Shown here piece by piece: positions 2,821 through 40,052 of a stretch of DNA of 64,000 nucleotides. Position 1 is the first letter of the stretch; each line of letters begins with the position of its first letter. Source of the DNA: Streptomyces griseus (GTDB lineage: Bacteria; Actinomycetota; Actinomycetes; Nanopelagicales; Nanopelagicaceae); the NCBI GenBank assembly GCA_945865365.1, contig CAMBDL010000004.1, positions 35,906-99,905 on the forward strand, in the 5' to 3' direction. The notes beneath the pieces are model-generated. The model had not been told where the DNA came from. It made no database searches and worked only from the letters and a program-made list of their open reading frames with translations. Position numbers and translations under genes: made by a program.

Positions 2821-3723
2821 TTACCCCTGTCGTTTCGGTGTACGGCCTAAGTCATTCATAAAAAGATCGAGCGTTTCATCATGTCTAAAATCAGTTATGT
2901 GTAGGCCTCGCACACCAGGAAGTGTTAAGGCATGCTGTGCGAGCTCCAGAGTTAAGTTGTAAACCTCTTGAGCGGGATCACTTGCACTGCTTGCTCGCGC
3001 TAATACGTCAGCAGGAACGTCGATACCGGGGACCTTGTCATTCATGAAGGCCAAACCTTTAGCACCTTTCATTAAAACGATGGTCGGTATAAGTTTTAAA
3101 TCAGGAGCAACTTCTGCAACGCCTTTGCAGAATGCTTCAAGGCGATCAGGGTGATAACAGATTTGTAGTTGTAGGAAACTTGCACCTGCGCGGTGCTTCT
3201 TTAGAGCCCGTTGAATTCGATAATCAAATGGGGGAGCGGCAGCATTTTCAACTGCACCGATATAAAAATCTGGAGCTGGGTTAATTTTTCGGCCCGATAA
3301 GTAGGTGCCTGTGGCCATAATTCGCGCCATATTGATGGCTTGGGCACTATCAACGTCAAAGACTCGACGTGCCTCTGGTTCATCTCCAGCCGTTACATCG
3401 TCTCCAGTTAATAACGAGAGGTTAGTAATTCCATGTAAAGATGCACCGATCATGTCGGCTTGAATAGCTATACGATTTTTGTCGCGGCAGACTATTTGCA
3501 TAATGGGCTCTAAGCCATGCATCTTCATCGCAATTGCAGTCGTTGTATTAGATGTATGGGCATGTGCTGCAGGGTTATCGGTTGCATTAACGGCATCAAA
3601 CCAAGGCGCTAAACGTGCGGCATTTTTAATCACGGAATCCATACCACCACCATCGATAGATGGAAATTCAGCGGTAAAAACAAGTTCAGAAGTATTCTCT
3701 AATTTTTCACGCAAGTTAGACAT
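2821..3723 (-). CDS. Methylenetetrahydrofolate reductase (MetF family)
   Basis: FAD-dependent TIM-barrel enzyme interconverting methyl-THF and methylene-THF. In this operon it probably runs oxidatively, feeding demethylation-derived methyl groups into the THF one-carbon pool. The 300-aa length is typical. The N-terminal FTAEFPSIDGGG strand carries the Glu expected of MetF, and LSLLTGDD (about 102-109) and FLQLQICYHPDR (about 183-194) are family-like. The start overlaps the stop of the MTHFR C-terminal-domain gene by one base (TAATG-type overlap near 3723). It is more like the catabolic/acetogenic MetF that works with a partner protein than the stand-alone biosynthetic enzyme; that distinction is inferred from the neighbour. 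Confidence 0.88.
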   Translation of the reverse strand: MSNLREKLENTSELVFTAEFPSIDGGGMDSVIKNAARLAPWFDAVNATDNPAAHAHTSNTTTAIAMKMHGLEPIMQIVCRDKNRIAIQADMIGASLHGITNLSLLTGDDVTAGDEPEARRVFDVDSAQAINMARIMATGTYLSGRKINPAPDFYIGAVENAAAPPFDYRIQRALKKHRAGASFLQLQICYHPDRLEAFCKGVAEVAPDLKLIPTIVLMKGAKGLAFMNDKVPGIDVPADVLARASSASDPAQEVYNLTLELAQHALTLPGVRGLHITDFRHDETLDLFMNDLGRTPKRQG

Positions 3724-34908: not shown

Positions 34909-35181
34909 CTACTTCTTTTTTAAGTTACGGTAAAAGTTTTCATGCGGCCCGATAAGCAGAAGCTTGAGACTTCCCACAGAAACAAAGCGATAGGCCAGAA
35001 GCCACTCTTGACGGTTAATGATGAACTTATAGACGTAGATACCTTCTAGGTCAGCGGCTTTAGCATCTCCAAGAAGGGGATTTGCGACCAACTGATTCAA
35101 AGCCTTATCTAATGAAGCCTTTTGATTCTTATGAAGCTTCTTTACCTGGCGAGCAAAAGTCGGTGTAAGTAGTAACTCCAT
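34909..35181 (-). CDS. RelE/ParE-superfamily type II toxin
   Basis: 90-aa toxin-sized protein with the RelE/ParE pattern: helical start (FARQVKKLHKNQKASLDKALNQL in two parts), a turn-rich middle (NPLLGDAKAADLEGIYVYKF), strands LLAYRFV and LKLLLIGPHENFYRNLKK. The late GPHENFYR motif is typical of mRNA interferase/plasmid-stabilisation members. Its ATG overlaps the antitoxin stop (TAATG). mRNA cleavage versus gyrase poisoning cannot be decided from sequence. Confidence 0.85.
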   Translation of the reverse strand: MELLLTPTFARQVKKLHKNQKASLDKALNQLVANPLLGDAKAADLEGIYVYKFIINRQEWLLAYRFVSVGSLKLLLIGPHENFYRNLKKK

Positions 35182-35390
35182 TACCCGAATGCGTAGTGGC
35201 CAGCAGCGGTCTCAGCATCACTCTTTAAAATCTCTTTAATCAGAGCGAAGGAGAGATCAGGATTAGCCTCAGCGATGGCAGCGATTTTGAAATAGAACTC
35301 AATCTGCTTCGGAATCGATCTGTGCTCGATCGCAGCAATTCGTCCGGCCGCCTGAACAAGATCATCTGAGAGCTTTACATTTGTCGCCAT
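35181..35390 (-). CDS. ParD-like type II antitoxin
   Basis: From the ATG at 35390 (AAAGGGG site) the protein is 69 aa and begins MATNVKLSDDLVQAAGRIA, a ribbon-helix-helix start like ParD-like antitoxins (PF11903 type), followed by a helix that would wrap the toxin. The frame continues upstream to 35489, but the ribosome site and family length support the short form. Precedes the toxin as usual, with one base shared. Confidence 0.82.
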   Translation of the reverse strand: MATNVKLSDDLVQAAGRIAAIEHRSIPKQIEFYFKIAAIAEANPDLSFALIKEILKSDAETAAGHYAFG

Positions 35391-35575
35391 GGTCAGAACC
35401 CCTTTGAGTATCCACACCATATCAGTAAAGGTATCTAAAAGTAACCTTTTGCCACCATAGCCCCAGCCCACTATATCCTTGATCTTCATCTATCCTCTTT
35501 TCACTTAGGCTCTGAATTTAATAATTAGGGACTGACAGAAAAGCAAACTAATCCACAGGTTTCAATAATTCGCGG

Positions 35576-35614: not shown

Positions 35615-36010
35615 ATGTTCGAGACCATATTTTTCGCAACCCTGATCTTCCTCTTTCTAAACCGCAACAAAAAAAGGCGCAAACCACGTGGCCTCGATGC
35701 AGAGCTCAAAGAGCTCATTGAAAACTCCAACGATGCAACCGGTATTGGCCTTGAGATCAAACGCCTATTACTGGATGTAATCAACGATGATAAGAATGAT
35801 CTGGAGAAGTTCTCTGACGTGCGCCTTGCCCAAGCCCAGCGAATATTAGATAGAGCAGGTCCAGGAGCTTTGTATTGGATGAGTGAGATTGCAGGCCAAT
35901 TAGCCAGCCTGTCGGCTGCGCAGATAAATGGAGTTCCTACCAACGTCAACGCCGAACTGCGCGATGGTGCGACTCCAGAGGATATTGTGCGAATCGTTGT
36001 GAGGCCCTAA
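35615..36010 (+). CDS. Small membrane-anchored protein of unknown function
   Basis: 131 aa: one N-terminal hydrophobic helix (FETIFFATLIFLFL), a basic stop-transfer patch (NRNKKRRKPR) and a helical cytoplasmic domain. No family recognised. Followed 63 bp later by the NfeD gene on the same strand. Confidence 0.62.
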   Translation: MFETIFFATLIFLFLNRNKKRRKPRGLDAELKELIENSNDATGIGLEIKRLLLDVINDDKNDLEKFSDVRLAQAQRILDRAGPGALYWMSEIAGQLASLSAAQINGVPTNVNAELRDGATPEDIVRIVVRP

Positions 36011-36073
36011 AGTCCACATCTCGCCTTCAATGGCTCACGTGGGTAGGCTTAATCCAGCGCGAAGGAGATGTTT

Positions 36074-36499
36074 ATGCCGATATGGATGTGGTTAGTTGCC
36101 GGTGGCGCACTCCTTGTTGCCGAAATGCTCACTGTTGATCTTCTATTTGCCTCATTGGCTTTCTCGGCATTTATGGCTGCAGGGGTGCAATCACTCGGTT
36201 TCAACATGGCTGTGCAGGGTTTCACCTTCGGAGTAGCGGCAGTCATCTCTCTTTTTATTTTGCGTCCTATTGCGCTGAAAAATTTGAAAAAAACGACACC
36301 AGATTTTGCAACCAATGTTGATGCTTGGGTGGGTGCAGCTGCCTTCACAATTTCAGAGGTTACTGATCGTTCAGGCCAGATTAAACTCAACGGTGAAATC
36401 TGGAGCGCTCGCAGTGAATCTGAGATAATTCCAGAAGGCTCCAAGGTTCGTGTAGTTGCAATCGAAGGCGCCACCGCAGTGGTCAATCAGAAGGGTTAA
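36074..36499 (+). CDS. NfeD-like membrane protein
   Basis: 141 aa: three or four membrane helices (about 3-70) and a C-terminal OB-fold (about 85-140, ending GSKVRVVAIEGATAVVNQK). The ATG at 36074 is preferred over 36068 because AAGGAG at 36062-36067 then has a six-base spacing. NfeD proteins pair with SPFH proteins in membrane microdomain organisation; the SPFH gene follows after 3 bp. Confidence 0.88.
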   Translation: MPIWMWLVAGGALLVAEMLTVDLLFASLAFSAFMAAGVQSLGFNMAVQGFTFGVAAVISLFILRPIALKNLKKTTPDFATNVDAWVGAAAFTISEVTDRSGQIKLNGEIWSARSESEIIPEGSKVRVVAIEGATAVVNQKG

Positions 36500-36502
36500 G
36501 CA

Positions 36503-37372
36503 ATGCTGTCATATTCTTTCGGAGTCCTCATACTGCTCGTTATTATCTTTGGAGTCATTCTTGCCAGATCCATCCGGATAATTCCACAGGCCAGTGCAGG
36601 ATTAGTCGAGCGCCTAGGCCGCTATCACCGCACCCTTGGGGCAGGGCTCACAATTATTATCCCTTTTGTCGATCGCCTACGTCCCCTGATTGATATGCGC
36701 GAGCGAGTTATATCCTTTCCACCTCAGCCAGTAATCACCGAGGACAACTTAGTTGTTTCAATTGATACGGTTATTTATTTTCAGGTGACAGATCCAAAAT
36801 CTGCTACCTATGAGATTGAAAATGTGATTCAAGGTATCGAGCAGTTGACAGTCACAACCTTACGTAACGTAGTGGGTGGTCTTGATCTAGAAGCGGCCTT
36901 AACTTCTCGTGACTCAATCAACGCCGCCCTTCGTGGGGTTTTAGATGAAGCCACTGGCAAGTGGGGAGTGCGCGTTAACCGTGTAGAACTCAAGGCGATT
37001 GATCCGCCTCCAAGTGTGCAAGAGTCGATGGAGAAGCAGATGCGCGCCGAGCGTGACAAGCGCGCGGCAATTTTGACCGCCGAAGGTGAAAAGCAGAGCC
37101 AAATTTTAACGGCAGAGGGTGCACGCCAAGCAGAGATTCTGCGAGCAGAGGGAGATGCACAAGCTGCAATTCTTCGCGCCGATGGTGAAGCCGCTGCAAT
37201 CAAAAAAGTTTTCGGTGCAGTCCATGATGCCAACCCTGATGAAAAAGTTTTGGCCTATCAATACCTTCAGCAACTACCTGCAATTGCCAATGGAAGTGCC
37301 AGTAAAATCTGGGTTATTCCAGCTGAACTCAGCGGTGCAGCAGAGCAGATCATGAAAGCCTTTAAAAAATAA
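36503..37372 (+). CDS. SPFH/Band-7 (stomatin/QmcA-like) membrane protein
   Basis: 289-aa protein with an N-terminal membrane anchor (about 3-24), PHB/SPFH domain (about 25-185, VERLGRYHRTLGAGLTIIIPF in part, ERVISFPPQPVITEDN) and a coiled coil of short repeats (AEGEKQSQILTAEG and similar, about 190-235). The partner NfeD gene is directly upstream, the classic arrangement. Probably assembles ring-like membrane scaffolds. Confidence 0.93.
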   Translation: MLSYSFGVLILLVIIFGVILARSIRIIPQASAGLVERLGRYHRTLGAGLTIIIPFVDRLRPLIDMRERVISFPPQPVITEDNLVVSIDTVIYFQVTDPKSATYEIENVIQGIEQLTVTTLRNVVGGLDLEAALTSRDSINAALRGVLDEATGKWGVRVNRVELKAIDPPPSVQESMEKQMRAERDKRAAILTAEGEKQSQILTAEGARQAEILRAEGDAQAAILRADGEAAAIKKVFGAVHDANPDEKVLAYQYLQQLPAIANGSASKIWVIPAELSGAAEQIMKAFKK

Positions 37373-37468: not shown

Positions 37469-38233
37469 TTATGTAGGAATCAGAGTGTTGGCAAAGATCT
37501 GCCAGGCAAGGGCTGATTTAGCGATCAAAGATAGCGTGATGTAGGTGCGCTCTCCACGGATGTAATCACTCCACTTTCCAACCTTCTTGTACTGCAACCA
37601 CTGCACAAGGGCAAATGAGTTAAAGAAGACAAAGATTGTAAAGACGATTCCATAAACAAATGCCGGCGCCGATGTATCACTGACCCCACCGATAGAAAAG
37701 ACATAAAACAAAAGAACAAGCCAAGGAACAAATCCGGCGATACAACCAAAGATAAATGGAAGCCATCCGCCATTACCCGGAGTCTCATATTTTTCCTGTA
37801 GCCAACCAAATAAAATCATCGATGCATTAACGCCAAAGATAGAGATAATCGATGAAATCTCGGCAACACCTGTCACCTGTGCGATTAATACAATCATCAC
37901 AGATGAGCTAATCGCATACTCGACCCAGCGGAAGTAGTTTCTCTGAGCAGCAATTCCTGCGCTATAGCGACCAAAGAACTGCGGACTTGCAACGATAAAG
38001 TGCGCTAGCGCCGATAAACCTAAGAAGATTGCAACAGTTAAACCGACGGGTGTGCTAAATAAAACCACCGGAGCTGAGAATGTAGAGCCTGGAGGTCCCG
38101 ACATATAGGTTGCAGTGATTGGTAGTGCAAAGTCATTACTCAATGCCAAAACGGCAATCATTTGCGCTAGATGCAGCGTTCCTGCCAGCACATTTGTTCT
38201 ACGAAGGCTCTGTGTTGTGATTGGTTTTCTCAT
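37469..38233 (-). CDS. Heliorhodopsin
   Basis: Seven-helix retinal protein of the heliorhodopsin family, 254 aa. Key residues line up with founding member 48C12 at a constant offset of two: His21 and His78 (H23, H80), counterion Glu105 in FRWVEYAISSS (E107) and Schiff-base Lys239 in LSLIAKSALAW (K241). The N-terminus would be cytoplasmic, the inverted topology known for this family. No retinal synthesis gene is in the window. Light sensing or regulation of a membrane protein is more likely than ion pumping. Convergent with NfeD/SPFH, divergent from a 56-aa membrane protein. Confidence 0.95.
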   Translation of the reverse strand: MRKPITTQSLRRTNVLAGTLHLAQMIAVLALSNDFALPITATYMSGPPGSTFSAPVVLFSTPVGLTVAIFLGLSALAHFIVASPQFFGRYSAGIAAQRNYFRWVEYAISSSVMIVLIAQVTGVAEISSIISIFGVNASMILFGWLQEKYETPGNGGWLPFIFGCIAGFVPWLVLLFYVFSIGGVSDTSAPAFVYGIVFTIFVFFNSFALVQWLQYKKVGKWSDYIRGERTYITLSLIAKSALAWQIFANTLIPT

Positions 38234-38323
38234 AGCGCAAGCCTAGCCGCCCCGCCATAAAAGCGCCCTAACACAAGCAAATTTCACCGAGAAAGTTCGT
38301 TTATCCTGCGCTAACTTTGCCCC

Positions 38324-38494
38324 ATGCTCGGTGGAATTAATAATGAACTATTTATCCAAGGCTTTGGTGGATTTATTGGAGTAGCCATTCTTATTCTCAT
38401 TCTTAAGTGGGCATTTCCTACCAAGAAAGATCCGGTAGCAAAAGCCGAGCGCAAAGCCGTGAAAGCATCGCTGCGCCAACTACGGCGCAAGTAA
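38324..38494 (+). CDS. 56-aa single-pass membrane protein
   Basis: Starts MLGGINNELFIQGFGGF, one hydrophobic helix (about 16-27, GFIGVAILILIL) and a highly basic C-terminal tail (KAERKAVKASLRQLRRK). Ends 12 bp before the SDR gene. No family recognised. Divergent from heliorhodopsin by 90 bp, so they may share a promoter region. Confidence 0.7.
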   Translation: MLGGINNELFIQGFGGFIGVAILILILKWAFPTKKDPVAKAERKAVKASLRQLRRK

Positions 38495-38506: not shown

Positions 38507-39223
38507 ATGTCACTCGTCGTTATTACCGGTGGATCTCGCGGTCTAGGTTTTGAAACCGCTAAAGCGCTAAAAGCACAGGGCCATGACATCGTCTTAGTTG
38601 CTAAAGACAGCGCTCGCCTTGCCCAGGCTGCAGCCGAATTACACTGTGATTATCGCAGCGTTGATCTAGAAGATCTCGTCGCTGCCAAGAAATGCTTCGA
38701 TGAAATCTTAGAAACCTTTGGTACACCAGAGATAGTGATCCTCGCCCATGCAGTGATGAGTGCAAAGATGTCAAAGACTCTTAAGAGCGATAATGCAGAG
38801 TGGCGCAGAGTAATGGCGATTAATTTAGATTCAGTATTTTGTGCACTCAACATATTGGCCGCACCTATGGCAGCCGCGCGCAGTGGCCGAGTCATTGTCT
38901 TCTCTGCATGTTTAGGTCGCATGTCTGGACCAGGCAACACTGGGGGATTAGCGCCTTACAGAGTCAGTAAAGCTGGCGTGAACGCACTCGTTCGAAATCT
39001 GGCACATGAGACTGGATTAGGCAGCCGCGGATTCTTAATCGATGCGCTGTGTCCTAATCATTCACGCACCGATATGGGCGGCCCCGATGCGCCTTTATCT
39101 GCCGAAGAAGGTGCACAAACAGCAATCTGGCTAGCAACTCGCAAGTTCGATATTAACGGCGCAACAGATCAAGAGAAGGTAACGGGAGTTTTGTGGGAAG
39201 AGATGAAAGTCGTGCCCTGGTGA
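38507..39223 (+). CDS. Short-chain dehydrogenase/reductase (SDR)
   Basis: 238-aa NAD(P)-dependent oxidoreductase. Cofactor motif TGGSRGLG (7-14), catalytic YRVSK (Tyr about 153) and Ser in VFSACLG. The usual NNAG is AHAV here. Substrate unknown. Same strand as and 12 bp after the 56-aa protein gene. Confidence 0.85.
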   Translation: MSLVVITGGSRGLGFETAKALKAQGHDIVLVAKDSARLAQAAAELHCDYRSVDLEDLVAAKKCFDEILETFGTPEIVILAHAVMSAKMSKTLKSDNAEWRRVMAINLDSVFCALNILAAPMAAARSGRVIVFSACLGRMSGPGNTGGLAPYRVSKAGVNALVRNLAHETGLGSRGFLIDALCPNHSRTDMGGPDAPLSAEEGAQTAIWLATRKFDINGATDQEKVTGVLWEEMKVVPW

Positions 39224-39308: not shown

Positions 39309-40052
39309 TTAAAGCTCTTTAGAAGCGTTTTCGGAATCTATTTTTAGAGAACGAATGAGTTGTAAGGCTTTTCTACCCGTTACCTCTAACTTTCGATATA
39401 TAGCAACTGTCTCCTGTCTAATCAGTGATTCGCTATAACCAATTTCTAGCGCAATTTGTGCGTTATTAAATCCGCGCCCGAGTAAGTCAGCAATAACTAA
39501 CTGCCGATCACTCAATGGAAGTTGAGGTAAGTCAATCTTTTCCTTAATATCAACAGCAGCCAGGACAATCGGCTTTGGAAGATGACTTGAATAAAGCCCC
39601 AACAGTGAACCAATTGCAATATAGAAGACTTTCATCGCCTCGGTTAGCTCAAGTTTTTGCGTAGAGTAAAGAGCCATTCCACCATCTGGAGAAGCTGGAA
39701 TAGCTACCCCTGACACCCACGTACCTTCATAACTAGAGCCAGCCTCGAGGTGATATTCCTTTTCATATTCAGTTTCGTTCTGGGCAATGAAGACAGTGTT
39801 CTCACGGATCGCAGCGCTGAGAGGGATTTTCACTTGAATGGGCAGATCAAAAAATGATGCATATTCATCAGAACTCCAACCGTATCCGCCGAGTGGACAG
39901 ACAAAACCATTGTCTATGAGCTCACCTATATAGAGGTAGAAGCATTTCTCTTCACTAAATGTGTTCATGACTAGGAATTTTGAGATTTCGTTAAAAGTTT
40001 CCGGTGAGGCCGCAAGGAAGTCAGAGAAGGCAAGAATCTTCTTAGAGTGCAT
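39309..40052 (-). CDS. LuxR-type transcriptional regulator
   Basis: 247 aa with a C-terminal GerE/LuxR HTH (about 180-240: LSDRQLVIADLLGRGFNNAQ then IALEIGYSESLIRQETVAIY). The N-terminal 170 residues have no clear family but could be a GAF-like sensor. AAGGGGGG precedes the ATG. Single gene; its targets are not evident. Confidence 0.82.
   Translation of the reverse strand: MHSKKILAFSDFLAASPETFNEISKFLVMNTFSEEKCFYLYIGELIDNGFVCPLGGYGWSSDEYASFFDLPIQVKIPLSAAIRENTVFIAQNETEYEKEYHLEAGSSYEGTWVSGVAIPASPDGGMALYSTQKLELTEAMKVFYIAIGSLLGLYSSHLPKPIVLAAVDIKEKIDLPQLPLSDRQLVIADLLGRGFNNAQIALEIGYSESLIRQETVAIYRKLEVTGRKALQLIRSLKIDSENASKEL

Follow-up and report, generated by a model that had tools for sequence, protein, structure and literature searches.

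The function of heliorhodopsin (HeR) is unsettled, and most proposals about it have been built on neighbouring genes. The arrangement glnA-HeR-leuA has been described for AbHeR and the glutamine synthetase (GS) of IMCC26103 (PMC9529153), and class 1 transcripts (PMC8612252) and a GS group (PMC11109279) agree with it. HeR neighbours have been divided into ten classes, of which SDR is one (PMC11109279). Here we analyzed a stretch of 64,000 nucleotides, called the window below, in which a HeR gene stands back to back with a gene for a 56-aa membrane protein (Table 1). This adjacency is very probably a lineage-specific accident, and the case illustrates that even a striking neighbour can be the product of one lineage.

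Table 1. Features of the HeR region, in window coordinates
Feature	Position	Strand	Basis or remark
131-aa protein, hydrophobic N-terminus, no known family	35615-36010	+	
NfeD-like protein	36068-36499	+	between HeR and 131-aa gene
SPFH/Band 7 protein	36503-37372	+	between HeR and 131-aa gene
Heliorhodopsin (HeR), 254 aa, ATG start	37469-38233	-	Pfam PF18761, PDB 48C12 HeR match, alignment, residues
Divergent gap of 90 bp with two separate leaderless -10-like boxes	38234-38323		sequence, family-wide motif tests
56-aa single-helix protein with basic tail	38324-38494	+	ORF, genus matches, alignment, family profile search
SDR oxidoreductase, 12 bp after the small gene	38507-39223	+	Pfam adh_short, E 3.7e-29

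The first-pass annotation named the gene a heliorhodopsin with all four signature residues, and both statements hold. The protein covers the Pfam Heliorhodopsin model from end to end (positions 1-242 of 242; E 6.5e-98; 327 bits, cut-off 26.7), and its residues 7-253 align with 48C12 HeR (6su3, 9ljj) at an E of about 2e-110. The signature residues are the pocket histidines H21 and H78, the counterion E105 and the Schiff-base (retinal) lysine K239; they are unchanged across an alignment of 11 HeR sequences from the genus, including one that is 40% identical. Compared with 48C12 and related actinobacterial HeRs (6su3, 9ljj, 6uh3), the protein aligns over its full length, is of equal length, has the retinal lysine, the counterion and the histidines in common with them, and differs by ordinary sequence divergence only. 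By its sequence it is thus a canonical actinobacterial HeR, of the family Nanopelagicaceae (acI lineage) judging from the organism names of related records, and the full-length alignment with 48C12 points to an inverted topology, with the N-terminus in the cytoplasm. As in the family, retinal would be bound at K239 with E105 as counterion, and the protein would act as a light sensor and not as a pump, presumably passing the signal from its cytoplasmic face to a trans-acting target. In one genome of the genus (G008; L014/L018, G008:C3:84334-85082) the HeR gene is split over two frames, by a frameshift or a sequencing error.

It is useful to trace where HeR lies in other genomes. Its immediate neighbours vary widely from locus to locus in the set of 84 compared. 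The commonest single arrangement is panB-nadE-glnA-HeR-leuA, which was detected in 14 of the best 80 loci from a collection of 84,980 species and in G014, and 9 of 12 additional complete family genomes with HeR show the same order. Unlike AbHeR, the window HeR is not beside glnA, and no HeR was found directly downstream of glnA in the window genome (G000). There the GS site is empty, with glnA at C6:63684-64982, leuA from C6:65007 and 24 bp between them, while HeR is located on C4. Nor does HeR lie between glnA and leuA in G015, G008 and G007. The HeR tree requires four changes of the GS label, indicating that HeR has joined or left GS more than once. Within the genus HeR thus behaves as a gene that changes its place.

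The glnA-leuA site itself has varied contents. In G015, G008 and G007 (L139, L140, L141) the gap contains a short ORF that is leaderless and includes Leu codons in direct succession (MNTRSLLLSCRGGVK in G015), which by its sequence is probably a leucine attenuator leader. This ORF is gone from the window genome (L137, G000:C6, about 3483-3510), where leuA has a GTG start and its own TACCGT box 24 bp after glnA. In G010 (L138, G010:C17) the site is occupied by a secreted metalloprotease-like gene of about 700 codons, not by HeR.

Could the window HeR regulate glutamine synthetase in trans, as has been reported for AbHeR, with the two genes on different contigs? We regard this as unlikely. Close relatives carry glnA-HeR-leuA, binding of HeR to GS was reported for AbHeR (PMC9529153), and the two proteins belong to the same family and share residue numbering. 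The charged ICL3 residues K216, K217 and K220, tied to GS binding in the same work, are present in the window HeR together with D223, while position 151 is T in the window HeR and E in AbHeR. However, almost all HeRs have the three lysines, with or without GS linkage, which makes them uninformative as a test of GS binding; the sequence gives no verdict on whether this HeR still acts on GS. In addition, this HeR falls within a clade without GS linkage. Species in which HeR and GS are unlinked serve as natural controls.

Does HeR carry its own start signal? In the genus, TANNNT ends exactly 6 nt before the ATG in 119 of 477 genes, a strong enrichment against about 7 genes at most other distances. 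A -10 box placed in this way has been described as the mark of leaderless genes in Actinobacteria (PMC3160421), and we use the motif as a predicted promoter signature. HeR has TANNNT in 62 of 75 loci and CANNNT in 11 more (73 of 75 in total), 6-7 nt before the ATG; for at least one of the remaining two an alternative ATG lies at the right spacing. GS-linked HeRs have their own TANNNT box as well (15 of 15 in that set and 9 of 9 further ones from complete genomes). HeR is therefore predicted to form, probably, its own transcription unit, which makes its neighbours weak evidence of function. Since HeRs of the genus retain a promoter signature of their own also where they follow glnA, arguments from guilt by neighbourhood are weakened, and the box of the GS-linked HeRs (glnA-HeR loci L091-L136) calls the published single-promoter operon into question.

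The contrast between HeR and glnA is weaker than the raw counts. Strict TANNNT was found before glnA in 0 of 12 cases, but glnA had to be rejected as a clean negative control for the motif because it has a weaker CANNNT variant at the same spot (for example CACTAT-CTGCCT-ATG); judging from this variant, glnA may start its own transcript too. HeR-GS cotranscripts have also been reported (PMC8612252), so that an internal promoter and read-through may coexist.

The first-pass annotation spoke of a promoter gap shared by HeR and the small gene. The divergent gap exists, but it holds two -10-like boxes, one per gene: TAACTT precedes the ATG of the small gene by 6 nt, and TAGGCT, read on the minus strand, precedes that of HeR by the same distance. 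In G010, G015 and G008, where a long distance separates it from HeR, the small gene still has such a box. With separate boxes, one of them retained away from HeR, the shared gap is no evidence of shared control, and HeR would be transcribed from its own box. A broader reading, offered tentatively since we hold it to be possible rather than probable, is that HeR in these freshwater actinobacteria is a self-contained leaderless unit which moves as a single gene and acts in trans, the GS partnership resting on one favoured insertion site and not on a true co-regulated operon. If this is true, species with an empty GS site, such as that of the window, are natural tests of the GS partnership.

The next gene to consider is the SDR gene behind the small one. 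An SDR gene closely downstream is the commonest context of the 56-aa form (G000, G024, G015, G008, L097, L114, G216), with exceptions in G003, G005 and G007, where this form lies between other genes. In L064, L070, L072 and L107 an SDR gene, 62-64% identical to that of the window, follows HeR on the same strand at about 10 bp, possibly as a real HeR-SDR unit. Together with the published SDR class of neighbours (PMC11109279), these loci would favour the SDR, rather than the small protein, as the partner of the window HeR. We consider this very improbable: in the window the two genes lie on opposite strands, in complete genomes the SDR gene is remote from HeR, and the four loci with the HeR-SDR order form one clade of HeRs.

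The small neighbour had been described as a tiny membrane protein with a strongly basic tail, divergent from HeR, and hydropathy, tail composition and strands agree with this. Its best 19-residue hydropathy window (2.47) starts at residue 9, and the tail of 26 residues contains 10 K/R and 2 D/E. The ORF is a genuine gene, judging from its conserved protein sequence and from matches in 17 other genomes of the genus (E <= 0.1; the weakest match, in G014, is marginal taken alone), with a single match per genome. Two forms occur in the genus, one of 56-58 aa with a basic tail and one of 106-113 aa with a soluble domain, and both begin with the same N-terminal helix, usually MLGG.NN. The 56-aa protein of the window shares the segment MLGG.NN...G...LKW with the family; it is 73-75% identical to the forms of G015 and G008 and 43-48% identical to most 106-aa forms. 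The gene of G015 (56 aa) and that of G014 (113 aa) lie amid the same neighbours (c17, c26, c18, c52-c54), which argues for orthology of the short and long forms.

The long form weakly resembles DUF2007 (E 0.026) or ACT_7 (E 0.0033), both below the curated cut-offs. Its predicted model consists of one long helix followed by beta-alpha-beta-beta-alpha (pLDDT 73.6, pTM 0.45), and a Foldseek comparison with the PDB gave no match at E <= 0.001, so for a model of this modest quality only a general ferredoxin/ACT-like layout is suggested. The 56-aa protein has the N-terminal helix and the MLGG.NN start in common with the DUF2007/ACT-like small membrane proteins of Actinomycetes (PF09413, below cut-off), but differs from them in lacking the C-terminal soluble domain, in place of which it ends in the basic tail. 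By sequence comparison it is the short form of a membrane-anchored family of about 106 aa (one helix plus an ACT/DUF2007-like domain). Any function of the 56-aa protein would be independent of HeR; its gene is co-directional with the SDR gene.

The first-pass annotation proposed to check whether the small gene also accompanies HeR in other genomes. Among the 24 genomes of the genus set, HeR is present in 15 besides the window genome and the small gene in 17, and the two are adjacent only in the window genome and in G024, a sister species whose HeR is 98% identical. Within the best 80 HeR loci of the wider scan, the small gene lies no more than 5 kb from HeR in four. These are L057, which most likely is G024 itself; L097, where one gene separates the two; L109, where the small gene is tail-to-tail with an unrelated HeR at 10 bp; and L114, where it is 2 kb away with its SDR gene. 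The HeR tree places L109 and L114 far from the window HeR, and across the 84 loci the divergent adjacency of the window type is limited to the window species and its sister. In all 14 complete family genomes that have both genes they are 37-583 kb apart: the distance is 37-76 kb for 11 genomes of the genus, 162 kb for G014 and about 580 kb for two genomes of a sister genus. G216, also a complete genome, carries the 56-aa gene with the SDR gene beside it but lacks HeR, and different genes flank the nearest relatives of the window HeR (L058-L061 and L065). By profile search, the small-gene family is present in 57 of 198 class genomes and in 32 of 90 sampled actinomycete genera, against HeR in only 41 of the 198, so the family is far more widespread than its proximity to HeR. 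A conserved adjacent transducer gene, as in pairs of the sensory rhodopsin-transducer type, was not found for HeR in the 84 loci or the complete genomes.

With high confidence we read the locus as an ordinary HeR that was relocated to a variable stretch of the chromosome and now stands divergent beside an unrelated pair of small gene and SDR gene; a genome rearrangement in the window lineage would have moved it there. The small gene may have been recruited to HeR specifically in the window clade, and about three separate HeR lineages (window clade, L109, L114) with the small gene within 3 kb are a mild excess over random positions; accessory genes of these genomes are found together in variable regions, which makes gene positions non-random. 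The partnership suggested as possible in the first-pass annotation, taken here to mean that the 56-aa protein is a small subunit in the membrane and passes on or tunes the light signal through its basic tail, agrees with the divergent pair in the window species and its sister and with the tail-to-tail pair in L109, but is hardly tenable and was rejected on synteny and distribution, as the small gene is missing from the side of HeR in almost all relatives, the outcome that the first-pass annotation had itself named as refuting.

The NfeD-SPFH pair (36068-37372) is missing from the corresponding place in the sister species (L057), and so is a gene for a LuxR-type regulator (39309-40052) that flanks the HeR region; both absences indicate that the region is hypervariable. 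The 131-aa gene was found near HeR in about 21 of the best 80 loci, which are from MAGs. It was rejected as a truly conserved HeR neighbour: its distance from HeR is large in complete genomes, so that shared accessory regions explain its proximity in MAGs. A pair coding for a ParE-like toxin and a ParD-like antitoxin lies near HeR on the minus strand of the window (34909-35489), and such a pair is also near HeR in several related loci.
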